64,000 nucleotides of DNA from Acidimicrobiia bacterium (GTDB lineage Bacteria; Actinomycetota; Acidimicrobiia; Spongiisociales; UBA5794): contig QJWC01000116.1 in the NCBI GenBank assembly GCA_003235475.1, positions 1 through 64,000 of the forward strand, read 5' to 3'. The notes below the pieces were generated by a model, which made no database searches, was not told where the DNA came from, and saw nothing but the letters and a program-made list of their open reading frames with translations. Position numbers and translations under genes: made by a program. Below, piece by piece: positions 16,070 to 16,617 of the stretch (the stretch's first letter is position 1; each line of letters begins with the position of its first letter).

Positions 16070-16085
16070 CGAGCGCCGCGGTTCG

Positions 16086-16534
16086 TACCGGGAGAGGGAC
16101 TCGAACCCGAAAGTACTGACCCGGGGTCTGGCGCAAGTTGTTGTCTCCGCGTTGCATTGAGTCGTGAGCGCAAGAGTGCGTCAGAGTGGGTGGAGAGCGT
16201 TCCCTCGGTGATTCTTGAGGGGAGCCTCGCGTGAGTACCGGGAGAGGGACTCGAACCCAAAAGCATTGACCCGGGGTTTCGCGCATGCCGGCGACGTCGC
16301 GGTCCAATGAGTCGTGGAGGTGACGTTGCCTTGTGGGGCCCCGAGGTCTCGTGCTCGGTGATTCCTGAGGGTGCCTCGCGGGGGTACCGGGAGAGGGACT
16401 CGAACCCAAAAGCATTGACCCAGGGTTTCGCGCGAGCCGATGTGTTCGCGTTGTGATGAGTCGTGAAAGCAAGAGTGCGTCGGCGTGGGTGGAGAGCGTT
16501 CCCTCGGTGATTCTTGAGGGGAGCCTCGCGTGGG
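16086..16534 (-). repeat. three ~150-bp tandem repeats, each containing the 3'-terminal 23 nt of the adjacent tRNA-Leu(CAA)
   Basis: taccgggagagggactcgaaccc occurs at 16086, 16236, 16385 and inside the tRNA at 16535 (spacing 150/149/150 bp); spacers share cggtgattc(t/c)tgagg, gcctcgcg, gagtcgtg and gaccc(g/a)gggt blocks. Confidence 0.9.
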
Positions 16535-16617
16535 TACCGGGAGAGGGACTCGAACCCTCACGAGCTTGCGCCCAGCGGATTTTGAGTCCGCCGCGTCTTC
16601 CATTCCGCCATCCCGGC
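16535..16617 (-). tRNA. tRNA-Leu (anticodon CAA)
   Basis: Minus strand GCCGGGATGGCGGAATGG...GCGGA-CTCAAAA-TCCGC...GAGGG-TTCGAGT-CCCTC-TCCCGGT-A; cloverleaf with long variable arm. Confidence 0.93.

Follow-up and report, generated by a model that had tools for sequence, protein, structure and literature searches.

The window analysed here is a 64,000-nucleotide stretch of an Acidimicrobiia genome (contig QJWC01000116.1, positions 1 to 64,000); a comparison of polA places it closest to metagenome assemblies of that class. In it, a tRNA-Leu(CAA) gene on the minus strand faces trpA across a gap of 463 nt, 449 of which are occupied by a tandem array in which a backbone and a copy of the 3' end of the tRNA, here called the tail, alternate three times:

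16533-16617, minus strand: tRNA-Leu(CAA), the anchor gene (ARAGORN; Rfam tRNA score 56.7 bits), the mature part ending at about 16535
16535-16557, minus strand: the tail within the tRNA gene, GGGTTCGAGTCCCTCTCCCGGTA, from T-arm position ~52 to A73 (exact match search)
16408-16534, minus strand: backbone of unit 1, 127 nt, with the motifs GAATCACCGA, CACGACTCA and GGTCAATGCTTTTGG; models R1 and R2 group it with homologues behind other tRNAs
16385-16407, minus strand: tail copy 1, identical to the tRNA at 23 of 23 positions (exact match search)
16259-16384, minus strand: backbone of unit 2, 126 nt, 31% different from unit 1 (sequence comparison)
16236-16258, minus strand: tail copy 2, 23 of 23 positions identical to the tRNA (exact match search)
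16109-16235, minus strand: backbone of unit 3, 127 nt, 15% different from unit 1 (sequence comparison)
16086-16108, minus strand: tail copy 3, 23 of 23 positions identical to the tRNA, the last copy, adjoining non-repeat downstream DNA (exact match search)
16070-16085, no strand assigned: 16 nt of non-repeat DNA separating the last tail from the trpA stop, the counterpart of a 20-90 nt gap in array-free relatives (sequence)

The original prediction of three further exact copies of the 23-nt tail is borne out, the units measuring 150, 149 and 150 nt. Its ranking of copies 1 and 3 as closest and copy 2 as diverged likewise holds, units 2 and 3 differing by 36% in their backbones. It had the repeats filling the whole gap to the trpA stop; the array does take up most of this gap, with the 16 non-repeat nucleotides left over. 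A search of the whole 2.1-Mb genome excludes a chance origin of the tail copies: at up to three mismatches the 23-mer found no further match, and its reversed-pattern control scored 0. A protein-coding, tpr-like repeat was also rejected, as the 149-nt middle unit breaks the reading frame and the lengths of homologous units ignore multiples of three.

Ten relatives share the facing arrangement of trpA and tRNA-Leu(CAA), in most cases with polA at the far side of it, and none has an array there. The gap in these syntenic relatives is 20-90 nt as against 463 nt in the window, which shows the Leu(CAA) array to be an insertion; three units of backbone plus tail were added between the tRNA gene and its old downstream neighbour. 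In G001, a genome of the same genus, tRNA-Leu(CAA) lies elsewhere and carries no array. A cluster of Glu and His arrays is not common to G047 and G048 and hence offered no comparison with an empty site.

The repeat is not peculiar to this tRNA. A family-wide search matched the unit at several places in two genomes of another genus, and these matches are tandem arrays of 145-154-nt units behind tRNA-Ser(GCT), Ser(CGA), Val(TAC), Val(GAC), Glu(TTC) and His(GTG); further arrays or units lie behind Met, Lys and Thr(GGT) and at island-displaced 3' fragments of Ile(GAT) and Val(CAC). The window's own genome holds the same ~125-nt backbone family behind Met(CAT), Ser(GCT) and Ser(CGA), in units of 151, 149 and 147 nt, respectively. 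The matches of R1 and R2, together with tail scans, place units behind Leu, Ser(GCT), Ser(CGA), Met, Val(TAC), Val(GAC), Glu, His, Thr and Lys, with the motifs GAATCACCGA or GACCCACCGA, CACGACTCATTG and GGTCGAGACTTTTGG recurring across tRNAs. Across three genomes, homologous backbones are thereby shown for nine or more different tRNAs, making the Leu(CAA) array, on sequence grounds, one locus of a short (~125 nt) non-coding tRNA-associated repeat family. At L179 (1-600) and L180 (1300-2000) of G045, the 3' fragments of tRNA-Ile(GAT) and tRNA-Val(CAC) are accompanied by a repeat unit, with apparent island ends before them; the repeats at these two places seem to predate the islands by which the tRNA genes were split.

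Same-strand repeats of the tail occur behind 8 of 44, 10 of 57 and 8 of 41 tRNAs in three genomes (reverse-complement control 0), counts that take in integrase-type islands with anticodon-loop attachment and a few chance or neighbouring matches, among them two Met matches at 484-502 nt that are the neighbouring Glu array. When compared with all tRNA tails of the same genome, the tail in every array of the family matched the local tRNA best, an outcome favoured by the fact that most of the repeats tested had been found through tail similarity. Nevertheless, the units recovered with the tail-free model R1 also carry the local tail, save for two decayed tails (Lys, L181; Val-CAC, L180). Every intact unit is thus shown to end in the tail of its own tRNA.

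The family is patchy and fast-diverging. A junction motif, GGTCRANNCTTNNGG(N)TTCRA, gave 20 matches, spread over 6 out of 138 genomes from the order; 19 of the 20 lie in repeats of this family (reversed control 0). It accompanies real units in five genomes (G000, G006, G045, G046 and G048), representing three genera of one family; the match in the sixth genome is probably due to chance. R2 and the junction pattern widened the range to G006 and G048, and no units were found in G047, which belongs to the same genus as G045. R1 found nothing more in 395 genomes of the class, a negative that carries little weight because this insensitive model failed to recover three loci that the tail scan detected in the window's own genome; a confinement to three genomes, as suggested by R1 alone, gave way to the wider range from R2 and the junction pattern. 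Phages and plasmids gave no match to the repeat, and viral contigs gave no tail matches and 12 short pattern matches.

Backbones and tails have different histories. A tree of the backbones places His and Ile units within the Val(GAC) units (support 96/85) and joins Val(TAC) with Glu (95/95), in both cases with different tails, and it groups Lys with Met. The tree shows that backbones have moved between tRNAs, the tail changing along with the tRNA. Arrays also persist by descent, since the two kinds of Val(GAC) unit are orthologous, with their order kept, between two species. Across nine arrays, the tails differ from their own tRNA at 9 of 420 positions (2.1%), as against 429 of 1662 positions (26%) among the backbones. 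In the Val(GAC) arrays of the two species, orthologous units are 21% different and all five tail copies are unchanged (P ~3e-5). Something must maintain the tails, be it selection or correction through recombination with the tRNA, because a duplication made once would decay like the backbone. Within arrays, near-identical neighbouring units and an A-B-A order of units are found.

Several other tail repeats were encountered in these genomes. Behind tRNA-Glu(CTC) (1122-1197 of L238, contig C75 of the window's own genome) lie two 94-nt tandem units with a different backbone, which repeat the 3' part of the tRNA from near the variable loop and so represent a second, unrelated type of tail repeat in the same genome. 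Tail-anchored units of 160 and 159 nt stand behind tRNA-Leu(CAA) in L140 (G017, 1380-1882) and in L098 (G026) and L100 (G025), with backbones unrelated to those of the window. More tail repeats were seen in L298 (G008, 1326-1401), L269 (G046, 1511-1585) and L319 and L320 (G048), where they lie behind Ala(CGC) (166 nt), Thr(TGT) (113 nt), Thr(CGT) (171 and 363 nt), Ser(CGA) (355 nt) and Ser(GGA) (116 nt). Very short islands of 263-953 nt, which leave no room for an integrase gene and whose flanking repeats start in the anticodon region and extend to the 3' end of the tRNA, were observed in the window's own genome (L232 at Arg(ACG), L226 at Val(CAC)) and in G045 (L252, L251 and L260). Lastly, a weak match to RNase P class A RNA (L137, 1729-1970, contig C14 of G045; 51.6 bits against a gathering score of 100, E 2e-13) lies inside a cluster of ~13 tRNA genes that includes two arrays.

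The account that covers most of the facts, and our best reading, combines insertion, duplication and recombination between tails. We lean towards the view that short tRNA-targeted elements enter at the 3' ends of tRNA genes, that each insertion copies the tRNA sequence between T-arm and 3' end, and that the units then amplify. The backbone would insert just 3' of the mature tRNA end; on insertion, the tRNA sequence beginning at T-arm position ~52/53 and closing at the 3' end would be duplicated, leaving the tRNA intact and giving the new unit a freshly copied local tail at its end. The array would then grow and shrink through recombination between the ~22-nt tails, as the A-B-A patterns and near-identical neighbours suggest, and the tails would stay matched either through a recombination or insertion reaction that concentrates on them or through selection. 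The enzyme would most likely be a recombinase acting in trans and reading the T-arm; the conserved GGTCGANACTTTTGG end that adjoins it may form part of the recognised site. Transcripts would pass from the tRNA into the array, and effects on the host would probably be small. Insertion with target duplication, recombinational amplification and a T-arm-reading recombinase are what we infer; our searches for the repeat family found no transposition event, integrase gene or autonomous element, and inspection found no terminal inverted repeats at the backbone ends. At a few loci (Thr, Met with its terminator, L262 and L267), the copied stretch reaches further downstream, which looks more like tandem duplication than insertion.

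The original prediction suggested several processed small RNAs or decoys. In this reading, that of a functional small-RNA array, the tRNA transcript would continue through the units and be processed, in the manner of RtT, into excised RNAs or decoys for tRNA-processing enzymes, with tails and motifs under selection. We now consider this unlikely. The roughly twelvefold greater conservation of tails over backbones would suit it, as would the three linear motifs common to units behind different tRNAs. Co-transcription of tRNA and array is itself likely, and is plausible only because no terminator-like site separates tRNA-Leu(CAA) from the array; in the Val(GAC) array of G045, a terminator-like hairpin was seen by eye 3' of the array. 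Some units do fold well (z -3.8 for Ser(GCT) and -3.7 for Val(GAC) of G46), and the Ser, Val(GAC) and His subfamilies fold better than shuffles. The units of the window, however, fold like shuffled sequences (z 0.44, -0.38 and 0.08), RNAalifold returned no consensus structure for 15 or 31 units, and the unit lengths and sequences diverge fast within a very patchy distribution. Support for a stem with a conserved GACTCA loop is marginal, and pairing in the HP2 stem is barely higher than in shuffles (58.3 versus 54.8% of cells). A conserved two-hairpin RNA, drawn by eye from Ser, His and Thr units, was abandoned when RNAalifold returned nothing and its best stem proved statistically weak. A tRNA-like refolding of backbone and tail was likewise set aside, being possible for Leu (CCGGG with CCCGG) and failing for other tRNAs.

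The alternative raised in the original prediction, a scar of repeated integration at the tRNA 3' end, fits better than small RNAs, though not in its classical form. Tyrosine integrases of the T-loop type use cores that begin in the T-arm and extend to the 3' end of the tRNA. Such an enzyme could have integrated minimal elements without cargo one after another, site-specifically, with attachment cores equal to the tRNA tail on either side of each unit; in favour of this, the T-arm is a natural palindromic core, and short islands of the anticodon-loop type occur in the same genomes at Arg(ACG), Val(CAC), Pro(GGG) and Ala(CGC). Yet a classical element brings its own tail and would tie one lineage to one tRNA, whereas here close backbones bear different local tails. 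The units are also too small for any integrase: the 126-127-nt backbones hold none, and homologous units are 131-142 nt (10-12 nt of tail included) with indels that do not come in threes. A classical integrase island is not what we see: the units fall well below the length of one, the start of the repeat lies in the T-arm instead of at the anticodon, and the copied tail changes with the target tRNA. We hold serial integration of this kind to be improbable. Pure local tandem duplication, by slippage or unequal crossing-over seeded by T-arm-like sequences and with gene conversion keeping the tails alike, accords with the identical neighbours and A-B-A order, with the downstream sequence copied at L262 and L267 and with unrelated backbones in the same layout (Leu(CAA) of G017 and of G025/G026, and Glu(CTC)), but it is already hard to keep as a full account and seems to us very unlikely, explaining neither the homologous backbones behind different tRNAs in different genomes nor the last tail adjoining old downstream sequence.

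Insertion with duplication of the tRNA end thus remains our preferred reading, and other known systems resemble its parts. Islands made by tRNA-targeting tyrosine integrases, whether of the T-loop or the anticodon-loop type, also have direct repeats of the tRNA 3' end flanking the insert, but the units described here are ~150 nt long, carry no gene and have a core that follows the target tRNA. In CRISPR arrays and casposons, a target segment is duplicated at each insertion, as would be the case here, and casposons use tRNA genes as targets. Casposases, which are homologous to Cas1, insert at specific sites (PMC6614799). The target duplication made by CRISPR and casposon insertion was the reason for looking for Cas1 (PF01867); the protein was absent from nine genomes including G000, G045 and G046, which are 60-95% complete and in which a very divergent Cas1 could escape, and present in 9 of 14 control genomes. 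The layout and the array-free loci are consistent with one target duplication per insertion, and the maintenance of tails shows that later processes act too. In contrast to both systems, the inserted DNA is one homologous family rather than varied spacers, and inspection revealed no terminal inverted repeats. REP and BIME elements are similarly short, non-coding and dispersed between genes, and rtT-like members have been noted among BIMEs (PMC2965389); however, all well-placed copies of the present family are tied to tRNA genes, and they are not palindromic.

The nearest known thing to the Acidimicrobiia repeats is E. coli RtT (RF00391), whose tandem units of 168-178 nt lie downstream of a tRNA and each end in that tRNA's 3' end. 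The resemblance to tyrT/rtT noted at the outset stands for the architecture, which we tested directly, and falls for the backbone: the RF00391 covariance model matched neither the window region (E<=1) nor the loci of six relatives (E<=0.1), while positive controls from E. coli scored 133-138 bits, and membership of RtT was rejected. RtT also follows its local tRNA, because the 178-nt units of the E. coli K-12 tyrT array, which closes with a tail, end in the tRNA-Tyr tail and a 168-nt unit behind proK of E. coli CKJ_1000_3.1 ends in the tRNA-Pro tail. At this proK locus (L209, 2848-3200), RtT repeats the tRNA-Pro tail plus the following terminator. RtT occurs in 4711 of 5426 E. coli genomes, at 1-14 places per genome (median 3). 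The literature, as far as it was covered, yielded no statement that the RtT tail follows the local tRNA. RtT differs in holding a T-arm copy in inverted orientation (GAGGATGAGAACCTCC in proK; GGGGAAGGATGAGAAGCTTC and near variants in tyrT) that follows the local tRNA, with complement scores of 13.5 and 12.0 against its own tail versus 6.0 and 8.5 against the other; no such copy complementary to the local tail was found in 15 arrays of the Acidimicrobiia family (permutation p 0.60). The RtT tail, moreover, begins in the T-loop and that of the Acidimicrobiia family in the T-stem. The two are therefore alike in layout and are not the same family.

It is tempting to speculate that both are selfish or semi-selfish, protein-less, tRNA-targeted elements that re-copy and keep the tail of the tRNA on which they land, having arisen independently in Acidimicrobiia and enterobacteria and moving by an undescribed recombinase or by an RNA/cDNA route that uses the processed tRNA 3' trailer. 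We offer this only as a tentative possibility, one that is rather doubtful as it stands. What is new is that tail-copying repeats form a family that follows tRNAs and carries the local tail each time. Which enzyme reads the T-arm, and why the tail copies match the tRNA while the spacers drift, are questions that follow from this. Treatments of E. coli rtT have so far centred on the tyrT operon and on a small RNA; the same layout with an unrelated backbone in another phylum, and with the local tail in both, points away from a single RNA gene and towards a general process that acts on the 3' ends of tRNAs. The origin of rtT thereby becomes testable, through the birth and loss of arrays between close strains.
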